From positions 106,868 through 170,867 of the forward strand of contig JACCEN010000012.1 of assembly GCA_013416435.1 (NCBI GenBank): 64,000 nt of DNA, written 5' to 3'. The position numbers were made by a program, and so were the translations under genes. Positions 50,937-64,000 of the stretch are shown here, piece after piece. Position 1 is the stretch's first letter. Each line of letters starts with the position of its first letter. Below the pieces are notes generated by a model, which was given only the letters and a program-made list of their open reading frames with translations, had not been told where the DNA came from and did no database searches. The DNA comes from Alcaligenaceae bacterium. Its GTDB lineage: Bacteria > Pseudomonadota > Gammaproteobacteria > Burkholderiales > Burkholderiaceae_B.

Positions 50937-52004
50937 TCAAAACGCCGGCGGGTTGACGGCGCGGTCCACCCTGAGTTCGGGGTGGGCGATGTCGCCGTCG
51001 CGGACGATTTCGGTGCCGTCCAGGGTGAGGCTGCAGCCGCGCATGGGGATATCCATGTGGCAGGCGGTATCGTTGTCGCCGCCCAGCTCCACGTTGGGGC
51101 CGAGCGAGAAAAGCACGTTGCCATAGAACGAAAGCGCGTTCATGACGTGCTCCTCGTGCAGCCTGCGGGTGGCCTCGAAGTGATACCAGCGCGCGGCGTC
51201 GTTCATGCCCCAGCCTATGTGCGAAATGGCATAGGCGCGCGGGTCGTTGAAGCCGGCCACGTAGGTGCGCAGCAGGTCGGCGTCCATGCCGGAGCCTTCC
51301 ACCTTGGTGACGTAGCCGCGCTCGACGGTGAGGACGACATCGGACTGCAGATAGCGTTTGAACGCGGCCAGGATGTCGCCCTGGCGCAGCACGACGGTGC
51401 CGTTCACCTGACCGTCATTGCCCTGGGTGAATACGAAGCCCGAAGGGAAGTGGTCCCAGCGGCCGGGCTCGTCGGTATAGCCGTACTCGGACATGACCGG
51501 ATACTGGCCGAGTTCATAGGTGATGTCGGTGCCGAACCGCGACGTGATGTGCATGCGCCGGGACTGCATCAGGATCTCGCGCCCCCGCTCGACGCGCTTG
51601 GCCAGCTCGCGCGTGGGAAACATGGCACGCAGCACATTGGGCGGTTCCATGATGCGCAGTATGCGCACGCCCGCTTTCTGCATGTCCAGCTGCTCGCGCG
51701 AGAACAGCAAGCCCACCAGGTCGATGACCATGTCGCAGCGCTTGAGCATATCCAGCACCAGTTCCCTGCCGACGAACGGATGGCGTCCTTGCACGGCCGC
51801 CTTCAAGGTCTGGTCGCGCTGGACGGTCACATTGAAGGCCTGCGCGCCCAGGCGTTCCGCCGCCTTGAGCAGGGCCTGCACATAATCCGACCATTCCGTG
51901 CCGGCATTCAAGATGGCCACCTGCTCGCCTTCGCTTACCTTGCACAGCCGCAGTTCCTCAAGGAACAATTCGACCAGATCAAAATCCACTGTTGATGACG
52001 TCAT
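50937..52004 (-). CDS. nicX: 2,5-dihydroxypyridine 5,6-dioxygenase-like
   Basis: A 355-residue homologue of NicX, the non-extradiol iron dioxygenase that opens 2,5-dihydroxypyridine to N-formylmaleamate. As remembered from Pseudomonas NicX, the iron ligands lie in SHIGWG and CHxD; here they are AISHIGWGMND and TACHMDIPMRGC. EYGYTDEPGRWDHFPSGF is also conserved. ATG 52002-52004 overlaps the NicD stop (ATGA), so a longer frame from 52322 is rejected. Last gene of the pyridine operon. Confidence 0.87.
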   Translation of the reverse strand: MTSSTVDFDLVELFLEELRLCKVSEGEQVAILNAGTEWSDYVQALLKAAERLGAQAFNVTVQRDQTLKAAVQGRHPFVGRELVLDMLKRCDMVIDLVGLLFSREQLDMQKAGVRILRIMEPPNVLRAMFPTRELAKRVERGREILMQSRRMHITSRFGTDITYELGQYPVMSEYGYTDEPGRWDHFPSGFVFTQGNDGQVNGTVVLRQGDILAAFKRYLQSDVVLTVERGYVTKVEGSGMDADLLRTYVAGFNDPRAYAISHIGWGMNDAARWYHFEATRRLHEEHVMNALSFYGNVLFSLGPNVELGGDNDTACHMDIPMRGCSLTLDGTEIVRDGDIAHPELRVDRAVNPPAF

Positions 52005-52822
52005 GATGCTTGCCGCACTCCCTTCGGTAGAACCTGCCGCAACACGCGCAGGCATAAGTCTGTGTTCTCGGCCTGCAGCTGGTGCGCGGCGCCTTCGGCG
52101 CGCACCACCCGCAAATCCGGCCGGCTCTGTTGAAACCTGGTCAGCTCTTCCTGGTTGATGACGCCGCTGCCTGTTGCCACGATCAGCGTGGCCTCGCAGC
52201 GCGCGCGCGCCACATCGTCGTAGATGTCCTGCCCGTGGAAGTCGCGGTAGGCGGCTTCGATGACGCGCGGATCGCAGCTTGCCATCCATTGGGCGCGCTG
52301 CCGCAGCAAGGGTTCGGGCCATGGCGCAACGCCCGGTCGGCGCAGGTAGGCGTCGCCTTCACCGCGCCGTGCGGCCTCGACCATGGCGATGGTGCGCTCG
52401 GCGGGAATCGGATAGGGCCGTGTGCCGGGCGCGCTGGCGGGCGGGTCCAGCATGATCAGGGACCCGATGGCGGTGGATCGGGCCGCAAGACGCGCCCCGA
52501 TGCGGGCGCCCATCGAATGCCCGACGACCGCGGGGGACTGCAGGCCGGCAGCGGCCAGGAAAGCCTGCAGATCATCGGCGCAGGCATCCAGCCCATAATC
52601 CAATTGCGGCCCCTGCTCGCTGAGCCCTCGGCCGCGCACGTCCACCACCCAGACATCGTGCCCGTCGTCCACCAGGGCTTCCGCCACGTGCATCCATAAA
52701 GCCGCGGGGCTGACGATGCCCGGCACGATCACCACCGGTGCGCCCTGGCCCTTGCAGCGCAGGTAATGCTGCCGGATGCCATTGGCCCTGAAATGGCCGC
52801 CATCGATATGCTGATTAGACAT
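52001..52822 (-). CDS. nicD: N-formylmaleamate deformylase-like alpha/beta hydrolase
   Basis: A 273-residue alpha/beta hydrolase closely following NicD in pattern: ANGIRQHYLRC near the start, VPGIVSPA (oxyanion), DVRGRGLS, the elbow VVGHSMGARIG with Ser103, MLDPPASAPG with an acidic residue, and a His near GAAHQLQ. It would release formate from N-formylmaleamate. It starts four bases after the CoxLG-type stop and is coupled to nicX through ATGA. Confidence 0.87.
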   Translation of the reverse strand: MSNQHIDGGHFRANGIRQHYLRCKGQGAPVVIVPGIVSPAALWMHVAEALVDDGHDVWVVDVRGRGLSEQGPQLDYGLDACADDLQAFLAAAGLQSPAVVGHSMGARIGARLAARSTAIGSLIMLDPPASAPGTRPYPIPAERTIAMVEAARRGEGDAYLRRPGVAPWPEPLLRQRAQWMASCDPRVIEAAYRDFHGQDIYDDVARARCEATLIVATGSGVINQEELTRFQQSRPDLRVVRAEGAAHQLQAENTDLCLRVLRQVLPKGVRQAS

Positions 52823-52826
52823 CGCA

Positions 52827-55754
52827 TCAGCCTCGCATCGCGCACATGATCAAGGATGCCGCGGCCGCCCCCAGCGAAGCCGCCGCGATCAGCCAAGGCA
52901 CCATGGGCCAGGTCGGCCAGATCGACGGCTGCTGCGCCTGCGCACCGGCCGGCACAGCCATCGGCGCTGCGGCCGGCTCGCCAAGCCGCTTCTGGAAGTT
53001 CTGGAAGAACTGCGCCGTCATTTTCGCGACGACGCCCTCCACCAGGCGCGCGCCGACCTGCGCCAGTTTCCCGCCTATATCGCCGGAGGCCTCGTAGTCC
53101 AGACGTGTGCCGCCGGACTCGGCATCGCTGACGCGGATGCGGATTTCCCCCTTGGCGAACCCGGCCGGGCCGGCATTGCCCTGCACCACCAGGCGGTATG
53201 AGTTCTGCTCGACGATATCCAGCATCTGCATGACCGACTTCATGCGCACGCTGACCGGCCCGATGCTGGACTTGACCACCATCTCGTAAGTATGGGGAGC
53301 CGTCTCGGCCATGCTTTGGCATCCAGGTATGGACGCCTTCAAGACTTCCGGGTCCATCAAGGCCGCCCACACTCGGTCGCGGCCGGCGCTCAACAGGTAA
53401 TCGCCCTGCACCTTCATCTCTTCACCTTTTTCTTTGTTGCGTGCCTGCTCCAGCAGCGCCGCCAAGTTCTTCATGGATATGGGAAGCGCCGTGACCGACA
53501 CCCCTGCGCCGGCAAGCGCCGACGAGACCGCATTGGCAATGGCGGCGCCGGTGGCAATGATGCCGCCCTCGCCCGCACCCTTGACGCCCAGCGGATTGCT
53601 GGGTGAGCGGGCCAGCTCCAGCGTGTCGCCGCGCACCATGGGAAAATCGGTGCTCGTGGGCAGCAGGTAGTCGGCGAACGTGCCCGTCAGCAATTGTCCG
53701 CTGCCGTCGTAGATGAACTCGTCCAGCAACGTGCCGCCCAGCCCCTGCACCGCCGCGCCTATGGTCTGGCCATGCACGATCTCGGGATTGATGACGCGGC
53801 CAAGGTCCTCGACACAGTAGTAGTCCAGCACCTCGACCTGCGCCGTGCCGGGATCGACCGCCACCTCGGCCATCTGCACGCCGAAAGTGTAGGTAAGCTG
53901 ATCCGACATGAACTTGGCGTTGACCTCGACCTCGCCGCGCTCGGTTGCGTCGGCATGGCCGGGAATGCCTTCGGCCAGCTGCACCAGGGTCAGCAGCTTG
54001 GCCCCATCGCGGGCGTCCACCACGCAGCCGTTGCGCCACGCCAGCGAGTCTTCGTCTCGGCCCAGCCTTTGCGCGCCGCGAGAAATCAAGCGCGCGCGCA
54101 TCAGGCGGGCCGCCTCGTGCGTGGCGGCACCGCTCATGACCGCGCTGCGGCTATGGTAGGCGCCGAAGCCCGTGTCGAGCAGCGTGGTGGAACCGTGATG
54201 CACGCGCACGGCCTGCATGGGAACGTCCAGGCATTCGGCCAGTACCTGGGCCATGGACGTTTCATGTCCCTGCCCGGCGCTGGATGCGCCCAGCGCCAGG
54301 TCGAAGCAGCCGTCGTGGCGCAGCGTAAGGCGCGCGTGCTCGCCCGGCCCGCCGCCGGTGGACTCGACGAAGCAAGCCAGGCCCAGACCGATGTAGCGGC
54401 CATCTTGCAGCGTGCCCGATCGCCGGCTGCGCAGCGCCCAATCGAATGCCTTCAAGGCGTGATCCAGCACCTGCGGGTATTGTCCCGAATCGTAGACGGC
54501 GGGGCCCATGCCGGGCACCAGCGCACCCGCGTCATAAGGCATCTGATCGGGGGGAATCAGGTTGGCGGAACGGATCGCGACAGGATCCATGCCCAGCCTG
54601 GCCGCCGCGATGTCGATGAGCCGCTCGCGAAAGAAGGTCGATTCGTAGCGGCCCGGGCCGCGATACGTGCCGGCGGGCGTTTTATTGGTGCAGACCGAAC
54701 GGACCTGGAACGATGTTGCAGCAATGCGGTAGGGTCCGGGCAGGAACTGCGTGCCCTTACCCGCCATCACCCCCGTGTTCGTCCGAACATAGGCGCCGTT
54801 ATCGGCCACCATGGTGCCGCGCATGCCGAGCATCGTACCGTCGCTGTCGAAGGCCAGGGCCAGATCGCAATAGGTTTCGCGCGAATGGTTCAGCGCCATC
54901 AGGCTCTCGCGCCGGTCTTCTATCCACTTGACCGGCCGTCCGACCTGGCGCGCCAGGTACGGTATGAGGAAGTCTTCCGGATAGAAGTCGCCGCGCACGC
55001 CAAAGCTGCCTCCCACGTCGCATTCGAGCATGTCGACGCGCTCCAGGGGCAGCGCCAGCATGTCCGCCAGAATGCGCCGGTTCGCGAAAGGAACCTTGGC
55101 CGCGCCCCACACCGTCATGTGTTCCAGGGACGCGTCCCATTCGGCGACCAGCCCCCGGCATTCCAGCGGCGCGGCGCTGTGCCGGTGCACATAGAAGCGT
55201 TCCTGCACGACCAGGTGGGCCTGATCGAACGCCAGGTCGATGTCTCCGAAGCCCACCTGATAGGACGTCGAGCTATTGCTGCCTTGCTCGGGATGCAGCA
55301 GGGTCTCGTCGCGCAGCGCCACTTGGGCATCGACAACAGGGGGCAGGGACTCGATATCGGGTACGACCCGCTCGGCCGCATCCTCGGCCAGGTAGGCGTC
55401 TTCGGCCACGACCACGGCGATCGGCTCGCCCACGTAGCGCACCCGATCGACCGCCAGCGGCTTCTGCAGGAAATGCTCCATGCCCGGCAAAGGGCAGGTA
55501 CGCTGGGGAATGTCCTTGAGCAGATCGGCGATATCGGCGCCCGTCACCACCACCAGTACACCCGGCATCGATGCCGCTTCGGCCGTGTCGATGCCGCGTA
55601 TCAAACCATGGGCAACGGGCGAGCGCACGACGCGGGCGTAGACCATGCCCGGCCGACGCAAGTCGTCCACATAATGGCCACGGCCGCTGACAAAACGAGG
55701 CGCTTCGCGGCGGGGCACCGCCTGGCCGATCATCTCATTGCTATTCATCTTCAT
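52827..55754 (-). CDS. Molybdenum hydroxylase large subunit fused to a CoxG-like SRPBCC domain
   Basis: A 975-residue protein. Residues about 1-780 are a xanthine-oxidase-family large subunit: AGTYRGPGRYES (form II type, lacking the CO-dehydrogenase Cys loop) and GVKGAGEGGI with the catalytic Glu. After residue 780 there is an SRPBCC/CoxG domain (VQGDYLLSAGRDRVWAALMDPE), a Pro/Ala linker and a C-terminal hydrophobic segment (WLIAAASLGAAAASLIM) that may anchor it in the membrane. It would hydroxylate the pyridine ring with water. An internal ATG at 53415-53417 with AAGGTG upstream could also yield CoxG alone. ATG 55754 overlaps the CoxS stop. Confidence 0.88.
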   Translation of the reverse strand: MKMNSNEMIGQAVPRREAPRFVSGRGHYVDDLRRPGMVYARVVRSPVAHGLIRGIDTAEAASMPGVLVVVTGADIADLLKDIPQRTCPLPGMEHFLQKPLAVDRVRYVGEPIAVVVAEDAYLAEDAAERVVPDIESLPPVVDAQVALRDETLLHPEQGSNSSTSYQVGFGDIDLAFDQAHLVVQERFYVHRHSAAPLECRGLVAEWDASLEHMTVWGAAKVPFANRRILADMLALPLERVDMLECDVGGSFGVRGDFYPEDFLIPYLARQVGRPVKWIEDRRESLMALNHSRETYCDLALAFDSDGTMLGMRGTMVADNGAYVRTNTGVMAGKGTQFLPGPYRIAATSFQVRSVCTNKTPAGTYRGPGRYESTFFRERLIDIAAARLGMDPVAIRSANLIPPDQMPYDAGALVPGMGPAVYDSGQYPQVLDHALKAFDWALRSRRSGTLQDGRYIGLGLACFVESTGGGPGEHARLTLRHDGCFDLALGASSAGQGHETSMAQVLAECLDVPMQAVRVHHGSTTLLDTGFGAYHSRSAVMSGAATHEAARLMRARLISRGAQRLGRDEDSLAWRNGCVVDARDGAKLLTLVQLAEGIPGHADATERGEVEVNAKFMSDQLTYTFGVQMAEVAVDPGTAQVEVLDYYCVEDLGRVINPEIVHGQTIGAAVQGLGGTLLDEFIYDGSGQLLTGTFADYLLPTSTDFPMVRGDTLELARSPSNPLGVKGAGEGGIIATGAAIANAVSSALAGAGVSVTALPISMKNLAALLEQARNKEKGEEMKVQGDYLLSAGRDRVWAALMDPEVLKASIPGCQSMAETAPHTYEMVVKSSIGPVSVRMKSVMQMLDIVEQNSYRLVVQGNAGPAGFAKGEIRIRVSDAESGGTRLDYEASGDIGGKLAQVGARLVEGVVAKMTAQFFQNFQKRLGEPAAAPMAVPAGAQAQQPSIWPTWPMVPWLIAAASLGAAAASLIMCAMRG

Positions 55755-56263
55755 TTCGCGCCTGGCCTGTCGATGGCGCCAGATGATTCCAGGTTGCGGC
55801 GCCGGCCCTCTTCCATGACCGCCTCCACAATGGGCAGGTATCCCGTACATCGGCAGATGTTGCCGGACATGGCCTCCCGCACCGATTCCGCATCGACCGG
55901 TTCGCCGCGCGCCAGAAAGGCTTCGGCAGTCACGATCATTCCCGGCGTGCAGAAGCCGCATTGCATCGCATGGTGGCCGCAAAAGCTCTGTTGCAGCGGG
56001 GACAGCCCATCTTCCGGCGTCAGGCCCTCTATGGTCGTGAGCTCGCAACCCTGCGCCTGCACCGCGAACATCAGGCAGGCACGCGCGGTTTCCCCATTCA
56101 GCAATATCGTGCACGCGCCACAGACACCGTGCTCGCAACCGACGTGGGTTCCCGTCAAACCAAGATCCTGGCGCAGAAAATCCGCCAGCAGCAGGCGGGC
56201 CGGCACCTGGCGTGAGACCACCTGGCCGTTCACCACCAGGTCTATGCTGTGGGTTTCATTCAT
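55751..56263 (-). CDS. Molybdenum hydroxylase 2Fe-2S subunit (CoxS-like)
   Basis: A 170-residue small subunit with a plant-type ferredoxin domain (GCEHGVCGACTILLNG) and a second [2Fe-2S] helical domain (CGFCTPGMI and NICRCTGYLPI). All eight cluster cysteines are present. It passes electrons from the molybdenum centre to the FAD subunit. ATG 56263 has GGAGC upstream; an earlier TTG is rejected. Its start overlaps the CoxM stop and its stop overlaps the large-subunit start, both ATGA. Confidence 0.93.
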   Translation of the reverse strand: MNETHSIDLVVNGQVVSRQVPARLLLADFLRQDLGLTGTHVGCEHGVCGACTILLNGETARACLMFAVQAQGCELTTIEGLTPEDGLSPLQQSFCGHHAMQCGFCTPGMIVTAEAFLARGEPVDAESVREAMSGNICRCTGYLPIVEAVMEEGRRRNLESSGAIDRPGAK

Positions 56264-57261
56264 TGATTGCTCCAAGTGGGGGTCGAGGGGTAAGACCCCA
56301 TACGGGGTCTTACCCCGCTGCGAAAGGGGTCAGACCCGCCGGGTCTGACCCCAGCCGTTGCCTCGTTGGCGTGAAAGGAGGGGTCAGACCCCGTACGGGG
56401 TCTGACCCCAGCCCCGGCGAGTGCGCGGGTAACGCAGCTGTGCACCAGATGGCAGCGCTGGTCCGCGCTGGCATGCATGTCGGAGCGCGGGTCGACCGAT
56501 GCCGCGGCCGACAAGCCGATGAGCTCCGTGTCGATGTCGGCGACGCCGCGGCCGATCAGGGTGGACAGCGCCGCATCCAGGCGCCGCGCCCGGTCTTCCA
56601 CGGCAAACACGGCCAGTCTTCCCGCCTGCACCACGCCGTTCTCGTCGACGCTCAGCCCGACCAGGGCGCCCGCCAGGGCGAAGTCGCCTCGCCGGCGCGC
56701 GATTTCGTGAAAGCCCCAGCGCCACCCGCCCAGCGGGGCCGGAAAACGTATCCGGCTCAGTATTTCGCCGGGTTCGAGCGCCGTCTCGTAGACGCCCCTG
56801 ACAAAGTCGTCGGCCGCGACGACACGTTCGCCTTGCGGGCCGGCCAAAGACATTTCCGCATCCAGCAACAGACAGACAGCAGCCCACTCGGCGGCGGGAT
56901 CCGCATGGCACAGGCTGCCGCCGATGGTGCCCCGGTTGCGTATCTGTTCATGGGCGACATGCCGTACCGCCAGCCCGATCGCGGGCCAGCCCGATTTGAC
57001 ACGCTCATCGCGCAGGAATCGATTATGTGCGACCATGGCGCCGGCGACCAGCCTGCCATCACCGTCGAGCTCCAGCGCTGACAACTCCTTGACGCCGGCC
57101 AGGTCCACCAGCATGCCCGGCGTGGCCATGCGCAGATTCATGGCCGGCACCAGGCTCTGGCCGCCGGCAATGACCCGGGCGTCATCCGGATGCTGCCGCA
57201 GCAGTTCCAGTGCCTCTTCAATGCCGGCGGGACGCCGATAGACAAAAGCGCTTGGTTTCAC
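56260..57261 (-). CDS. Molybdenum hydroxylase FAD subunit (CoxM-like) with repeat-encoded tail
   Basis: A 333-residue protein. Residues 1-285 are a normal CoxM/FAD-binding subunit: VIAGGQSLVPAMNLR and RNRGTIGGSLCHADPA bind FAD, and PRSDMHASADQRCHL is the usual C-terminal motif. Residues about 286-333 are encoded by three palindromic elements and their spacers, giving three related ten-residue units of the form GVRPRTGSDP. The tail ends in an ATGA overlap with coxS, so the read-through keeps translational coupling. It starts two bases downstream of the Bug gene. Confidence 0.9.
   Translation of the reverse strand: MKPSAFVYRRPAGIEEALELLRQHPDDARVIAGGQSLVPAMNLRMATPGMLVDLAGVKELSALELDGDGRLVAGAMVAHNRFLRDERVKSGWPAIGLAVRHVAHEQIRNRGTIGGSLCHADPAAEWAAVCLLLDAEMSLAGPQGERVVAADDFVRGVYETALEPGEILSRIRFPAPLGGWRWGFHEIARRRGDFALAGALVGLSVDENGVVQAGRLAVFAVEDRARRLDAALSTLIGRGVADIDTELIGLSAAASVDPRSDMHASADQRCHLVHSCVTRALAGAGVRPRTGSDPSFHANEATAGVRPGGSDPFRSGVRPRMGSYPSTPTWSNQ
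56287..56409. repeat. Three palindromic elements inside the coxM 3' end
   Basis: Copies at 56287-56316 (GGGGTAAG variant with matching change), 56326-56352 (short) and 56380-56409 (standard), all read in the same frame on the minus strand. They encode the 48-residue tail of the CoxM-like protein. Confidence 0.95.
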
Positions 57262-57263
57262 GA

Positions 57264-58238
57264 TCAGTTGGCCTTGAGGCCCATCTTGTCGACGATGGGA
57301 CTGAACATTTCGACTTCACGCGCATAGCGCGCGGCGGCTTCGGCCGGCGGCATGCCTTCGGGCTTGATGCCCATGGTGCCCAGCTTCTCGGTGACTTCAG
57401 GAGAATGCAGGACCGCATGCAGCTCCTTCTGCAGGTAATCGGTGATCGCGGCCGGGGTTCCCTTGGGCGCCGCCACGGCGGAATACAGCGAGAAGTCAAA
57501 GCCCGGATAGCCGGACTCGGCAAGCGTGGGCACGTCGGGCAGGATCGGATTGCGTTCGGCGGACGTCACCGCCAGCGCCTTCGCCCGCCCCGAAGCAACC
57601 AGCGGCGCGCCGGGGCCGATGTCGGAGCTGAAAAGCTGCGTATTCCCCGCGAGCAATGCCTGCGCCGCTTCCGACGAACCCTTGTACGGAATCTGGGTCA
57701 GCTTGATGTCGGCAATCGATGCGAAGTATTCGGTGGGCACCTGCGAAGAATAGCCAAACGAGCCGTAATTGAGTTCACCCGGTTTTTCCTTGGCGTACTT
57801 GACCAGGTCCTTCACGGTATCGAACGGCTCTTTGACGCCCGCCAAGATAACCAGCGGATAGGAACCCAGGATGGTGACAGGCTCGAAATCCTTGACCGGG
57901 TCGTAGGGCAAATTGTTCTGCGTGATGGGGTTGAAGACCATGGGCCCGCTGCCGCCCACCAATAGCGTGTAGCCATCAGGCTTGGCGCGCGCAACGTACT
58001 GCGCGGCGATGATGCCGCTGGCGCCCGCCTTGTTCTCGACGACCACCGTCTGCCCGATACGCTTGGACAGCTCGGCCCCGACCAGGCGCGCAACGAGGTC
58101 CGTGCCCCCGCCCGGTGCGAACGACACAACGAAGCGCACGGGTTCGTTGGGATAGCCATCCGGGCCATTTCCCGCCAATGCGATGCCACCGACGGCGAGC
58201 AGGGTCGCCGCGACGATCGCTTTCTTCATCTTCTTCAT
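57264..58238 (-). CDS. TTT-family periplasmic receptor (Bug)
   Basis: A 324-residue TctC/Bug receptor with a signal peptide (MKKMKKAIVAATLLAVGGIALAG in pattern), VRFVVSFAPGGGTDLVAR and VVVENKAGASGIIA. AAGGG lies upstream of ATG 58238. It sits inside the pyridine operon between the FAD monooxygenase and coxM genes, so a pyridine carboxylate is its likely ligand. Confidence 0.92.
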   Translation of the reverse strand: MKKMKKAIVAATLLAVGGIALAGNGPDGYPNEPVRFVVSFAPGGGTDLVARLVGAELSKRIGQTVVVENKAGASGIIAAQYVARAKPDGYTLLVGGSGPMVFNPITQNNLPYDPVKDFEPVTILGSYPLVILAGVKEPFDTVKDLVKYAKEKPGELNYGSFGYSSQVPTEYFASIADIKLTQIPYKGSSEAAQALLAGNTQLFSSDIGPGAPLVASGRAKALAVTSAERNPILPDVPTLAESGYPGFDFSLYSAVAAPKGTPAAITDYLQKELHAVLHSPEVTEKLGTMGIKPEGMPPAEAAARYAREVEMFSPIVDKMGLKAN

Positions 58239-58297
58239 GATTTACCCTTCATTTCTAGTGGTTGATGCAAAACGTGGCCCGCACGCGGCGACGCGGG

Positions 58298-59503
58298 TCA
58301 ATCCAGCGGCACATTCACGGCGTCGTAAGACAGAATCCATTCGTAGCGATCCCGTATCTTTTCCGATGCCCATTCCGTATTGACGTAGTCGTCGGCCGTG
58401 TCGGGATCGAGCAGCGCATGATTGTGAAACCGGCCCAGATTCTCGGACGACTTCCTGACGATCTGCGTCGTGCGTTCCTTGCGCGCCTTTTCGTAGCGCC
58501 GCAGCGCTTCCGGCACGTCGTCGAACTGGCTCAGGGCGCGGGCCAGCACCATGCCGTCCTCGATGGCCATGTTGGCGCCTTGCGCCAGATAGGGCAGCGT
58601 GGCGTGGCAGGCGTCGCCCATCAGCGTGACGCGGCCCTTGGTCCATTGCGGCAGCGGTTCGCGCAGGAACAGCGCCCATTTGTACGGAATCTCTATCTGG
58701 CTGACGATGGTCTGGATATCATTGTGCCAGCCCGCATAGTCGGCCCGCAGTTCTTCTACGCTGCCTTCCTCCGTCCAGGATTCGCCCGCCCAGTCGTCAC
58801 GCTCGACGTGGCCCACGAAGTTCAGCAAACGCCCCGACCGCAGCGGATACAGAATGACGTGCCCATTGGGACCGATCCAATTGACGCCCACAGGCCGACG
58901 CAGATGTTCCGGCAAGCGTTCAATGTCGATGATGCCGCGCCAGCAGCACCCGCCCGTGAACTTGGGTTGATCGGGGCCGAACATGGCCTTGCGCGTGGCC
59001 GAATGCAGGCCGTCCGCGCCCACCAGCACGTCGCCCCGGATGCGTCTGCCGTCCTGCAAGATCAAGGTCACGCCATCCGCATCCTGCTCGAAACCGGCCA
59101 CCCGGCTGTTGACCATGCACGCATCGGGCTTGATTTCACGCACGGCCTCGAGCAGCATGGAATGCAGGTCGGCGCGGTGCATCATCAAATAAGGAACGCC
59201 ATAGCGGTCCATCGACTCTTTGCCCAGGTTGAACAGCGGCCAGGTCTTGCCCGTATTCCAGACGCGTACTTCTTTGGCCTGGGCATCCACACCCAGGCGC
59301 TTGGCCGGCTCTTCCAGCCCCAGCTCATACAGTACCCGCACCCCGTTGGGCCCCAGCTGGACCCCGGCGCCGATCTCTTTCAGTTCCTGAGCCTGCTCGA
59401 AGACGGACACATCGAAACCACGCCGCAGCAAGGCCAGCGCCGCCGTCAAGCCGCCGATGCCGCCACCGGCAATCAATACATGCTTTTTTTGCTGCATGGT
59501 CAT
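58298..59503 (-). CDS. FAD-dependent aromatic monooxygenase (salicylate/6-hydroxynicotinate hydroxylase-like)
   Basis: A 401-residue class A flavoprotein: LIAGGGIGGLTAAL (FAD), VGADGLHSATR (DG motif) and MGDACHATLPYLAQGANMAIED. By position in the operon it should make 2,5-dihydroxypyridine from a hydroxylated pyridine carboxylate, as NicC does. The segment corresponding to NicC GAGIHIGPN, with a catalytic His, is GAGVQLGPN here (Gln49), as in 3-hydroxybenzoate 6-hydroxylase-type enzymes, so orthology to NicC is doubtful. ATG 59503 overlaps the NicF-like stop (ATGA). Confidence 0.85.
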   Translation of the reverse strand: MTMQQKKHVLIAGGGIGGLTAALALLRRGFDVSVFEQAQELKEIGAGVQLGPNGVRVLYELGLEEPAKRLGVDAQAKEVRVWNTGKTWPLFNLGKESMDRYGVPYLMMHRADLHSMLLEAVREIKPDACMVNSRVAGFEQDADGVTLILQDGRRIRGDVLVGADGLHSATRKAMFGPDQPKFTGGCCWRGIIDIERLPEHLRRPVGVNWIGPNGHVILYPLRSGRLLNFVGHVERDDWAGESWTEEGSVEELRADYAGWHNDIQTIVSQIEIPYKWALFLREPLPQWTKGRVTLMGDACHATLPYLAQGANMAIEDGMVLARALSQFDDVPEALRRYEKARKERTTQIVRKSSENLGRFHNHALLDPDTADDYVNTEWASEKIRDRYEWILSYDAVNVPLD

Positions 59504-60216
59504 GCTCCCCGCCCCTGCGCGGCCGGTATCAAGGCCAGCATTTCGTCGGTGGACATCACGTCGGCATACTTGCTGTTCATGTCGAACAGATTGACCGCGT
59601 GAGAGGTTTGCGACCGGTCGAAAACGGCGTCATGCGGAACGATGACGTGATAGCCGTAAGACGAGGCATCGACCGCGGATGCGCGCACACAGCCGCTGGT
59701 GGTGGTGCCTGTGACCACAACGCAGTTGGCGTTCTGGGTGGTCAGGTAGCTGACCAGCGGCGTGCCGAAGAAGGCGCTGGCATGATGCTTGGGCAGCAGG
59801 ATATCGCCCGGTTGCGGCGCGCACTCCTTGACCATTTCATAGCCTTGCCGCGGTATGGACATGATGCCCGGCGCCTTGTCGGCAAAGCGCTGGCCGTCGT
59901 GGTTTTCCTTGAAAGCCACGTGCGGAAAAATGACCGGCAGCTTGTGCTGCCGGAAGGCCTGGATGAGCCGCGCGATATGCGGCACGGCGCGCCAGCCATA
60001 TTCGCCGCAGCTGGTCGGATACTCGCGCTTTATCGACTCCATGATGGGCAGTCGTTCGTGCCCGACCGAGCGGTATTGCACATCGATCACCAGCAAGGCC
60101 GGCCTGATTTCCCCCTGGAACCGCTTGCCGAACCCCGCCGCCTGATAAATCGACAGCTCTTCTTCCGTGACCACATCCTGCCATGGCAGTGTTCGACCTT
60201 CATTAAACGTATCCAT
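59500..60216 (-). CDS. nicF: Isochorismatase-family maleamate amidohydrolase-like
   Basis: A 238-residue cysteine hydrolase. The triad is visible as Asp45 (LLVIDVQ), Lys143 (LLPKHHASAF) and Cys176 (TGTTTSGCVRAS). In the nicotinate pathway NicF hydrolyses maleamate to maleate and ammonia; the adjacent nicX and nicD homologues support that role. N-carbamoylsarcosine amidase is the closest other possibility. It is the first gene of the minus-strand pyridine operon. Confidence 0.82.
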   Translation of the reverse strand: MDTFNEGRTLPWQDVVTEEELSIYQAAGFGKRFQGEIRPALLVIDVQYRSVGHERLPIMESIKREYPTSCGEYGWRAVPHIARLIQAFRQHKLPVIFPHVAFKENHDGQRFADKAPGIMSIPRQGYEMVKECAPQPGDILLPKHHASAFFGTPLVSYLTTQNANCVVVTGTTTSGCVRASAVDASSYGYHVIVPHDAVFDRSQTSHAVNLFDMNSKYADVMSTDEMLALIPAAQGRGA

Positions 60217-62463: not shown

Positions 62464-63450
62464 ATGGATAGCGCCGATTTCATGGTGCTGCGCCGCCTAT
62501 GCCAATGGCGCCAGGAAAACCGCCATGCCATGCTGGTCACCGTAGTACACACCTGGGGCTCGTCGCCGCGTCCTGTCGGGTCCATCATGGCGATGCGCGA
62601 CGACGGCGCCGTGGTCGGCTCCGTATCGGGCGGCTGCATCGAAGACGACCTCATACACCGGCATACGGGCACCCCGTGGCCCGGAACGCCGCAAGTCCTG
62701 ACCTACGGCGTCGACGCCGACGAAGCGCATCGCTTCGGCCTGCCCTGCGGTGGCACAGTGGAACTGGTTGCGGAATTCGACCCCGACCCGGCACTGCTGA
62801 CCGACTTGCTCGCGTCGATCGGCCAAGGGCGCCTGGTCAGTCGGGAACTGAGCATGACAGACGGACAAGTCCGGCTGCTGCCCGCCGACACCGCCCAGGC
62901 GCTGGTCCACACGGACTCCCTGATGAGCAGCGTATTCGGGCCGAGCTACCGGATGCTGATCATCGGCGCTGGGCAACTGTCCGAATACCTGGCGACCATG
63001 GCCGTGTTCAATGGATTCTCGGTGTCGGTATGCGACCCCCGGATCGAATACACCGGGCAATGGTCCGTGCCCGGCGTGGAAATACTGACCGGCATGCCCG
63101 ACGACGTCGTGAACGACTTCGCCCCCGACTCCCGAACCTGCATCATCGCCCTGACGCATGACCCGAAACTGGACGACCTCGCCCTGCTTTCCGCGCTGCA
63201 CAGCGCGGCCTTCTACGTAGGCGCCATCGGCTCCAGAAAAAACAGCGCCGCGCGCAGGCAAAGAATGATCGACTACCTGGACCAGCCGCCCGAACTGCTG
63301 CAAAAGCTGCGCAGCCCCGTCGGGCTCTTCATCGGCAGCAAGACACCCGCTGAGATTGCCGTGAGCATCATGGCAGAAGTGATAGCGGTGAAGAACGGAG
63401 TGGTGGGGGGGTCAGACCCTATAGGGTCTGACCCCGGGCGGCTTAGGTGA
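62464..63450 (+). CDS. XdhC/CoxI-family molybdenum hydroxylase maturation factor, repeat-encoded tail
   Basis: A 328-residue protein: N-terminal XdhC/CoxI domain (about 15-70; TWGSSPRPVGSIMAM and GSVSGGCIEDD) and C-terminal Rossmann domain (about 155-300; MLIIGAGQLSEYLA). XdhC proteins deliver sulfurated molybdenum cofactor to xanthine-oxidase-family enzymes; the CoxLMS-type hydroxylase of the divergent operon is the obvious client. The natural end is probably near AVKNGVV; the last part, GGSDPIGSDPGRLR, comes mostly from a palindromic element. Confidence 0.88.
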   Translation: MDSADFMVLRRLCQWRQENRHAMLVTVVHTWGSSPRPVGSIMAMRDDGAVVGSVSGGCIEDDLIHRHTGTPWPGTPQVLTYGVDADEAHRFGLPCGGTVELVAEFDPDPALLTDLLASIGQGRLVSRELSMTDGQVRLLPADTAQALVHTDSLMSSVFGPSYRMLIIGAGQLSEYLATMAVFNGFSVSVCDPRIEYTGQWSVPGVEILTGMPDDVVNDFAPDSRTCIIALTHDPKLDDLALLSALHSAAFYVGAIGSRKNSAARRQRMIDYLDQPPELLQKLRSPVGLFIGSKTPAEIAVSIMAEVIAVKNGVVGGSDPIGSDPGRLR

Positions 63451-63634: not shown

Positions 63635-64000
63635 TTATGGGCGCACCTCTGCCATCAAATACCGACGCGCCATCCACAGATTGCTCAACGTAAACAGCGT
63701 CAGCAACTGCGCCGTGTTCTTCGCCAGCCCCCGATACCGCACCTTCGTATAGCCGAACTGTCGCTTGATCACTCGAAACGGATGCTCCACCTTGGCCCGC
63801 AGACTGGCCTTGGTGTGTTCATAGGCGTTTTGCAACGACTGCACTGTCTTGCTCAGCGTCTTGCGCAGACTCGGCCGTAGTGCAATATGCCATTGCACCT
63901 GGCGCCCCTGGTGTTCTGCACGTTTGCCCACACCCTGATAGCCTGCATCGCCCAAGACGAGTTCTTCCTCCCCGTGCAGCAGGCCATCGACCTGCGTGAC
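63635..64000 (-). mobile_element. IS5-family transposase, C-terminal part, cut by window edge
   Basis: The 3' end of an IS5-type DDE transposase. VLGDAGYQGV carries the second catalytic Asp, and RAKVEHPFRVIKRQFGYTKVRYRGLAKN has the Y/R-E-K signature with the catalytic Glu; the C-terminus LFTLSNLWMARRYL is typical. The frame is open to the window edge, so about 120 residues are seen and the start lies outside. I could not identify the terminal inverted repeat in 63483-63634, because the other end is not in view. Confidence 0.9.

Follow-up and report, generated by a model that had tools for sequence, protein, structure and literature searches.

A probable pyridine-acid operon whose first two enzymes differ in lineage from those of the textbook 2,5-dihydroxypyridine pathway

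RESULTS

The window analyzed here is a stretch of 64,000 nucleotides from a Parapusillimonas genome. On the minus strand, from 60216 down to 50937, eight genes read in one direction encode, in order, a NicF-like amidase, an FAD monooxygenase (FMO), a Bug receptor, CoxM, CoxS, CoxL, NicD and NicX (Table 1). Four junctions (NicF/FMO, M/S, S/L and NicD/NicX) are 4-nt ATGA overlaps and two are gaps of 2 to 4 nt; the only larger gap (59 nt) separates FMO from Bug. The operon proposed in the first-pass annotation is borne out, with nearly all genes overlapping or touching, and its gene families were confirmed: isochorismatase-fold amidase, FAD monooxygenase, TctC/Bug, CoxM, CoxS, CoxL, alpha/beta hydrolase and NicX. 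The operon Bug receptor resembles Bug27, BugD and the terephthalate-binding protein.

The IclR regulator assigned to the same interval (50937-60216) is present but lies beyond it, in a divergent block with a second Bug gene and an XdhC maturation gene that were absent from the earlier account. This Bug-IclR-XdhC block belongs with the operon. A 71% identical copy of XdhC adjoins a related operon (L051). Two candidate operator boxes are kept in P. granuli, and Rfam gave no matches within the window.

Table 1. Coordinates of the operon, the divergent block and associated features in the window
Feature	Start	End	Strand	Evidence or remark
NicX-like 2,5-dihydroxypyridine 5,6-dioxygenase, 355 aa	50937	52004	-	NicX 7CN3, 2.2e-82
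NicD-like N-formylmaleamate deformylase	52001	52822	-	NicD 4L0C
CoxG domain of CoxL-CoxG fusion	52827	53417	-	COXG E=1.4e-28; C-terminal hydrophobic helix about 52833-52901
Fused molybdopterin large subunit CoxL + CoxG/SRPBCC domain, 975 aa	52827	55754	-	MoCoBD_1 and MoCoBD_2 E<1e-67
CoxS-type 2Fe-2S subunit	55751	56263	-	Fer2_2 2.8e-30
CoxM-type FAD subunit	56260	57261	-	About 45 C-terminal residues from REP palindromes
Three REP palindromes translated as CoxM tail	56286	56409		Palindromic repeats
Bug/TctC periplasmic carboxylate-binding protein (operon gene)	57264	58238	-	TctC 4.2e-62
FAD monooxygenase, 401 aa, predicted decarboxylative para-hydroxylase yielding 2,5-dihydroxypyridine	58298	59503	-	Outside NicC clade
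NicF-like maleamate amidohydrolase, isochorismatase fold, 238 aa	59500	60216	-	Pfam Isochorismatase 1.6e-33; assigned mainly by context
Candidate operator box A, divergent promoter region	60285	60320		36-nt repeat shared with box B
Candidate operator box B, inverted repeat TTCTCA-TG-TGAGAA	60394	60429		36-nt repeat shared with box A
Second Bug/TctC receptor	60531	61547	+	Divergent from operon
IclR-family regulator	61574	62350	+	IclR_C 4.4e-26, HTH_IclR 2.8e-12
XdhC/CoxI molybdenum-enzyme maturation factor	62464	63450	+	XdhC_C 1.1e-33

The genome has one NicX gene, and NicX 7CN3 is the sole PDB match of its product, with homology over the full length. The 7CN3 iron ligands H265, H318 and D320, which form the iron triad of NicX, are kept here and in all 90 homologues compared; E177, H189 and S192 are kept as well. 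Since the iron ligands are retained, cleavage of 2,5-dihydroxypyridine by this protein is a well-supported prediction. Phenylalanine for histidine at position 105 was considered as a sign of an altered active site, a reading that was rejected because Phe is the commonest state (81/90).

NicX proteins of this operon type form their own supported clade (n = 13; SH-aLRT, 99), and the NicF-like enzyme and NicD are equally divergent from their classical counterparts. Both observations would fit ring cleavage of a carboxylated dihydroxypyridine in place of 2,5-dihydroxypyridine, with the lower pathway acting on modified intermediates. We regard this as very unlikely: every compared active-site position, the common Phe 105 (81/90) among them, agrees with ordinary NicX.

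The nearest solved relative of the NicD homologue is NicD itself (2.9e-49), followed by a runner-up at about 1e-12, and the Ser nucleophile motif GHSMGAR is present. The protein named earlier as a NicF homologue is indeed an isochorismatase-fold amidase, but its identity as NicF comes mainly from context, and its closest PDB entry is N-carbamoylsarcosine amidohydrolase. It is 57 to 65% identical to the NicF-position proteins of related operons and 30 to 41% identical to those at classical NicF positions; a 59% identical relative sits in a plasmid cluster without NicX. The maleate isomerase NicE was not found in the genome (best match, 28 to 30%).

The open reading frame annotated as the large subunit of the molybdenum hydroxylase contains CoxL and then, with no change of frame, a CoxG (SRPBCC) domain. 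This fusion is conserved in P. granuli, and single annotated plasmid proteins, e.g., from Cupriavidus necator, align across both parts. The idea that it is unique was rejected, as the same genome encodes a second fused CoxL-CoxG (G000:C2). The CoxG part of the AlphaFold model has low confidence and was not used to infer a fold; this low-confidence model places a putative C-terminal helix at residues 952-974.

The Mo subunit is closest to the nicotine enzyme Kdh and not to PicA or CO dehydrogenase. Its nearest solved relative, Kdh 7DQX (1.6e-152), hydroxylates a pyridine ring. The active-site Cys loop AYxCSFR of aerobic CO dehydrogenase is not found in CoxL, which reads TYRGPGR there, and the hydroxylase scores under the curated CODH cut-offs. 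No CXXCH haem motif was found in the hydroxylase subunits or the FMO, nor any haem motif across the operon. Judged by its sequence, the hydroxylase is not of the NicAB type: it is without cytochrome c CXXCH motifs and has an FAD subunit, CoxM. The first-pass annotation had set the FAD subunit and IclR regulator against known nicotinate clusters, a contrast that proved too sharp. FAD-subunit nicotinate hydroxylases have already been described from Bacillus DSM 2923 (20/34/85 kDa subunits) and E. barkeri (NdhFSLM) (PMC10331938), and related Variovorax operons are also accompanied by an IclR regulator and a Bug receptor.

The proximity to Kdh raises another reading, in which the lower pathway is the same and the substrate is a different 3-substituted pyridine (a 3-acylpyridine, nicotine-derived 3-succinoylpyridine or a nicotinate ester). 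The Mo enzyme would act at C6 and the FMO would strip the side chain. In the nicotine pyrrolidine pathway, Spm and HspB perform C6 hydroxylation and side-chain removal. We consider this reading fairly unlikely. For the FMO, HspB scores 4.5e-09, far behind NicC and the hydroxylases of 4-hydroxybenzoate and tropone. Neither the operon nor its immediate surroundings yielded further recognizable nicotine genes, and the Bug receptors suggest a simple carboxylate.

The nearest structures to the FMO are TrlE, NicC, the 4-hydroxybenzoate and vanillate decarboxylative hydroxylases, and 3-hydroxybenzoate 6-hydroxylase. Sequence and fold similarity place it in the class A decarboxylative/para-hydroxylases (NicC, 4HB1H, VanH, TrlE, 3HB6H group). 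It does not carry the NicC-clade signature at positions 47, 202, 213 and 302 (QGHIYVGHY versus HCHMYVTGH), and His47, Cys202 and His302 of NicC are Gln, Gly and Tyr. Gln at position 47 is also found in HxnX, a fungal 6-hydroxynicotinate monooxygenase. The FMO clade is separate from the NicC clade and includes enzymes from loci without NicX. The 6-hydroxynicotinate-binding residues H211 and Y215 of NicC are conserved as H215 and Y219, but these are kept in many other hydroxylases of the group and are not diagnostic of NicC. Besides the operon FMO, no NicC orthologue was found in the genome (best, 38%). The FMO of an ABC-transporter-linked Alcaligenaceae cluster (L055) was considered as a NicC and dropped; its signature reads QSHVYVAVF.

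The CoxG partner proposed for the 3-hydroxypyridine dehydrogenase HpdA (PMC11962113) and the top NCBIfam score of the FMO, to 3-hydroxybenzoate 6-monooxygenase (318.7 bits, under the cut-off of 459), would both suit a substrate without a carboxylate, namely pyridine or 3-hydroxypyridine. The direct product of the Mo enzyme would then be 2-hydroxypyridine or 2,5-dihydroxypyridine, with the FMO acting as a plain para-hydroxylase like 3-hydroxybenzoate 6-hydroxylase. This seems quite improbable, as the enzymes are flanked by two Bug carboxylate receptors; moreover, clusters with the two PEP-synthase-like genes of the 3-hydroxypyridine cluster have a Mo subunit of another clade.

DISCUSSION

There is good support for assigning this locus as a pyridine-acid operon feeding the 2,5-dihydroxypyridine-to-maleate pathway. 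Its final steps are familiar, and the first two enzymes are of another lineage than those of the textbook pathway. The simplest substrate would be nicotinate, degraded via 6-hydroxynicotinate, the upper steps being inferred. We give a probability of about one-half to the full scheme, in which a pyridine-3-carboxylate, most likely nicotinate, is degraded as follows. The Bug receptor would take the pyridine acid in the periplasm. CoxM (FAD), CoxS (2Fe-2S) and CoxL-CoxG (Mo), matured by XdhC, would place a water-derived OH on C6, giving 6-hydroxynicotinate. Electrons would pass from FeS to FAD and on to membrane quinone via the fused, membrane-tethered CoxG, which would replace the NicB cytochrome domains. 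The family and active-site residues of the FMO suggest that it replaces the carboxylate para to the OH, producing 2,5-dihydroxypyridine and CO2. NicX would open the ring to N-formylmaleamate, NicD would release formate, and the NicF-like enzyme would remove ammonia to leave maleate. IclR may govern the divergent promoters through the twin boxes.

Several findings count against this scheme. The FMO is without the NicC signature and in another clade, the genome has no NicE, and the Kdh substrate is a 6-hydroxypyridine, not nicotinate. The electron outlet is weakened by the low-confidence CoxG model and by Sulfolobus. In its favor, CoxG has been described as a quinone-binding partner or anchor (PMC13240472, PMC11962113). 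Sulfolobus CoxG serves as an anchor and takes no part in electron transfer. A tentative extension is that both upper enzymes were recruited apart from NicAB and NicC, as a Kdh-lineage Mo hydroxylase delivering to quinone via a fused, membrane-anchored CoxG and a decarboxylative hydroxylase of a benzoate-type lineage.

The earlier proposal was a new nicotinate route or the degradation of another pyridine acid such as picolinate. Its pyridine-acid core holds, and new enzymes for the same chemistry are plausible. With picolinate or 5-hydroxypicolinate as the substrate, the FMO would be an HpaM-like 5-hydroxypicolinate 2-monooxygenase; the OH of 5-hydroxypicolinate is likewise para to the COOH, and the same ipso chemistry would yield 2,5-dihydroxypyridine. 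C5 is, however, not a usual target of Mo hydroxylases, for which positions 2, 4 and 6 are given (PMC10331938). Picolinate is disfavored, and we rate it unlikely, because no PicC orthologue is encoded in the genome (best, 29%), the operon does not include a Rieske-type PicB, and the Mo subunit groups apart from the PicA clade. A literature search for HpaM or a published operon matching this one found nothing usable.

Among known systems, the nicotinate (nic) operon of the P. putida KT2440 type shares NicX, NicD and a NicF-like amidase, as well as a Mo hydroxylase and then an FAD monooxygenase supplying 2,5-dihydroxypyridine. It has NicA, a cytochrome-bearing NicB, NicC, the MarR-type NicR and NicE, whereas the operon here has an FAD subunit with CoxG, an FMO outside the NicC clade, IclR with Bug, and no NicE. 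The picolinate (pic) cluster of Alcaligenes faecalis JQ135 and Bordetella (PMC10142695) shares the three-gene PicA-type layout and the PicD/E/F lower pathway; its PicB oxygenase and PicC decarboxylase are missing here, and its Mo subunit is about 35% identical and of another clade. The nearest characterized Mo subunit, that of the multi-subunit 6-hydroxypseudooxynicotine dehydrogenase Kdh of Paenarthrobacter (7DQX), also serves a pyridine ring substrate but is about 37% identical, belongs to a nicotine pathway and is a 794-residue chain without the CoxG fusion. HpdA of Ensifer adhaerens HP1, likened by description and not by sequence, combines a Mo hydroxylase with a CoxG/SRPBCC partner (PMC11962113). 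Unlike the operon here, the HpdA route has no FMO step. It reportedly leads to 2,5-dihydroxypyridine, with a separate SRPBCC subunit.

Other genomes carry the gene set too. A Hydrogenophaga metagenome-assembled genome (L067) has it in conserved order. In Variovorax, Bradyrhizobium and Tardiphaga it occurs with a separate CoxG and a Mo hydroxylase that is not orthologous, and in Rhodospirillales it likewise comes with a different Mo hydroxylase plus CoxG. The uncharacterized Variovorax, Bradyrhizobium and Tardiphaga operons share the enzyme functions, a monophyletic NicX and a related FMO, and in Variovorax also IclR and Bug. Unlike the operon here, their order is coxL-coxG-coxM-coxS-FMO-nicF-nicD-nicX, their coxL is just 28 to 30% identical, and their FMO signature is WVHTYSGQY in the rows compared.

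If these readings are correct, one type of pyridine-catabolism operon retains its ring-opening half and exchanges its Mo hydroxylase. Taken with the Bradyrhizobium/Variovorax version, the Mo-hydroxylase slot would be a swappable cassette and CoxG the constant electron outlet, and electrons from N-heterocycle hydroxylation could reach quinone by CoxG rather than cytochrome c. They would also caution against labeling all NicX-linked FAD monooxygenases NicC and could offer new biocatalysts for regioselective pyridine hydroxylation. P. granuli LMG 24012, which is in culture, would allow the parts to be studied directly.

One correction to the first-pass annotation concerns CoxM, the last 40-odd residues of which are translated REP palindromes. 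REP palindromes number about 1,008 in this genome, which also encodes one REP-type transposase; the sister species has 1 and 0.

An eight-gene operon with a divergently transcribed regulator block

The first-pass annotation had claimed an eight-gene operon, and eight co-directional genes were found, joined by four ATGA overlaps, two gaps of 2-4 nt and one 59-nt gap. A divergent promoter region of 314 nt separates them from a second Bug gene, an IclR regulator gene and xdhC. Operon order and divergent block are identical in P. granuli LMG 24012, with proteins 87-99% identical, so the host is, judging from sequence, a close relative of that species. On either side of the divergent promoters is a 36-nt box; the two are 81% identical, lie 109 nt apart and are both kept in P. 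granuli, and box B holds TTCTCA-TG-TGAGAA. The boxes are candidate IclR operators.

Coordinates of the operon and other features (window positions unless a locus from the scan of relatives is named; FMO, FAD monooxygenase)
Feature	Position	Strand	Content
Operon	60216-50937	-	NicF-like amidase, FMO, Bug receptor, CoxM, CoxS, CoxL-CoxG fusion, NicD, NicX
CoxM C-terminal extension	56260-56420		~45 residues, REP palindromes translated in frame
XdhC end	~63400-63450		likewise REP-encoded in frame; tail VGGSDPIGSDPGRLR
Apparent IS5-like transposase end (by eye)	63635-64000		leaves the window just past xdhC
Palindrome GGGGTCAGACCCCGTACGGGGTCTGACCCC	e.g., 50882, 56380, 60435, 62358, 62409, 63453		16 full copies in the window
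Y1_Tnp gene (REP-associated tyrosine transposase-like)	L208:1264-1878 (G000:C7, about 166623-166949)		the genome's only one
Second, separate CoxL-CoxG fused Mo hydroxylase	L193:7944-10937 (G000:C2)		with CoxM and CoxS; neighbours a ligase-like gene and apparent UbiD/UbiX-like genes (by eye)
Actinobacterial 2,5-dihydroxypyridine cluster	L081:3343-14707		two PEP-synthase-like genes, a CoxG gene

The probable ring-opening half recurs in related operons

NicX, NicD and NicF homologues had been proposed; solved relatives bear out the first two, while the NicF-like amidase is less certain. The sole solved relative of NicX is P. putida NicX (7CN3, 2.2e-82), and solved NicD (4L0C) scores far above every other hydrolase. 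E177, H189 and S192 of NicX are retained. The iron ligands H265, H318 and D320 are invariant across 90 homologues including the operon protein. The amidase is a cysteine hydrolase of isochorismatase fold, closest among solved structures to an N-carbamoylsarcosine amidohydrolase, and a Methylobacterium cluster without NicX encodes a 59%-identical relative. Given the operon context, the substrate that fits is maleamate. A search of the operon's genome for a maleate isomerase gave no orthologue (best match, 28-30%); P. granuli has one (69%) elsewhere in its genome.

A Hydrogenophaga MAG carries the full set in matching order except for Bug (50-66% identity), with coxL unfused. A sister operon type, coxL-coxG-coxM-coxS-FMO-nicF-nicD-nicX, occurs in Bradyrhizobium, Tardiphaga, Rhodospirillales, Variovorax plasmids and another Alcaligenaceae-family genome (L051), with coxL only 28-30% identical to ours. 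Those of Variovorax SRS16 and V. boronicumulans also carry IclR and Bug; in L051, an unrelated alpha/beta hydrolase sits at the NicD place. In quick tree searches, with PDB sequences taken from printed alignments, NicX of the operon and related operons forms one clade of 13 (SH-aLRT 99), with L051 outside; counts of related operons are lower bounds. Because this clade is common to operons with differing coxL, the ring-opening half was passed on as a unit, whereas the Mo hydroxylase varies between them. Labelling of relatives' clusters as pic or nic follows gene content. A search of open-access papers, a set that lacks most subscription articles, turned up no experiments on operons of this kind.

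Two loci of family f12 (L047 and L050) encode IclR-coxM-coxS-coxL-amidohydrolase-coxG operons without NicX, their CoxL 50-52% identical to ours; they represent an uncharacterised Mo-hydroxylase system, probably one for another ring acid. L081 and similar actinobacterial 2,5-dihydroxypyridine clusters (L082, L089, L096, L099 and L114; full annotation covers L081) have no FMO close by. L081 resembles the 3-hydroxypyridine cluster of Ensifer HP1.

The molybdenum hydroxylase carries a CoxL-CoxG fusion

The proposed three-subunit CoxM-S-L hydroxylase is present, but the CoxL open reading frame continues without a stop or frame change as a CoxG domain (COXG profile match, 1.4e-28), and P. granuli has the same fusion. 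An AG-rich stretch precedes an internal ATG, at which re-initiation is conceivable, although nothing forces such a reading. The CoxG part terminates in a hydrophobic helix; the unfused CoxG proteins of Hydrogenophaga and a Mycobacterium cluster have it too, but the short Bradyrhizobium CoxG lacks it. The Mo subunit is not a CO dehydrogenase: the Cys loop is absent, with TYRGPGR in its place. Its closest characterised relative is Kdh, the nicotine-pathway 6-hydroxypseudooxynicotine dehydrogenase. The tree groups it with Kdh and with betaproteobacterial enzymes that are uncharacterised, while PicA and the Bradyrhizobium-type subunit branch elsewhere.

A motif search of the hydroxylase subunits found no haem motif, and electrons must exit by FAD or by CoxG. 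Delivery to quinone by CoxG can only be inferred, since one account describes CoxG as a membrane protein that binds quinone and serves CO dehydrogenase (PMC13240472), and another, on Sulfolobus, as a membrane anchor that takes no part in electron transfer (PMC11962113).

Nicotinate is the most economical candidate substrate

Ipso hydroxylation to 2,5-dihydroxypyridine requires an OH para to COOH, which both 6-hydroxynicotinate and 5-hydroxypicolinate provide. The ring positions open to Mo hydroxylases are 2, 4 and 6 (PMC10331938), so the operon enzyme could yield 6-hydroxynicotinate from nicotinate; 5-hydroxypicolinate from picolinate would not be expected. This, the lack of PicC in the genome (best match, 29%) and the separation of the Mo subunit from PicA argue against the suggested picolinate alternative. 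C6 hydroxylation fits, PicC is missing, no protein of the genome matches NicC better than the operon FMO does (38%), and NicX is present in a single copy; on these grounds nicotinate is the most economical choice, at roughly even odds. As for the new nicotinate route first proposed, the FAD subunit by itself has precedent, since three-subunit nicotinate hydroxylases with FAD are known (PMC10331938).

By sequence and by the fold of a fair predicted model (mean pLDDT 75), the FMO groups with NicC, 4-hydroxybenzoate 1-hydroxylase, vanillate 1-hydroxylase, tropone 2-monooxygenase and 3-hydroxybenzoate 6-hydroxylase. A quick tree without bootstrap places it apart from NicC (SH-aLRT 99), beside the FMOs of the Hydrogenophaga and Bradyrhizobium operons and several FMOs whose loci lack NicX. 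Nine NicC active-site positions read HCHMYVTGH in true NicC rows versus QGHIYVGHY here; both 6-hydroxynicotinate-binding residues, H211 and Y215, are retained, as in many members of the group. These differences do not exclude 6-hydroxynicotinate, because fungal HxnX, which acts on it, also carries Gln at position 47 (PMC9304392).

REP palindromes extend two reading frames

The 30-bp palindrome GGGGTCAGACCCCGTACGGGGTCTGACCCC has ~1,008 copies in the 4.4-Mb genome, 1 in P. granuli and 0 in 19 other relatives, which suggests a REP family that multiplied recently. At 333 aa, CoxM is longer than its counterparts in P. granuli (301 aa) and Hydrogenophaga (287 aa); translation of three palindromes accounts for the added tail, and ATGA coupling to CoxS is intact. 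A genome search found no Y1_Tnp gene in P. granuli; the one in our genome is bordered by GGGGTCAGACCCCGTACGGGGTCTGACCCC palindromes.
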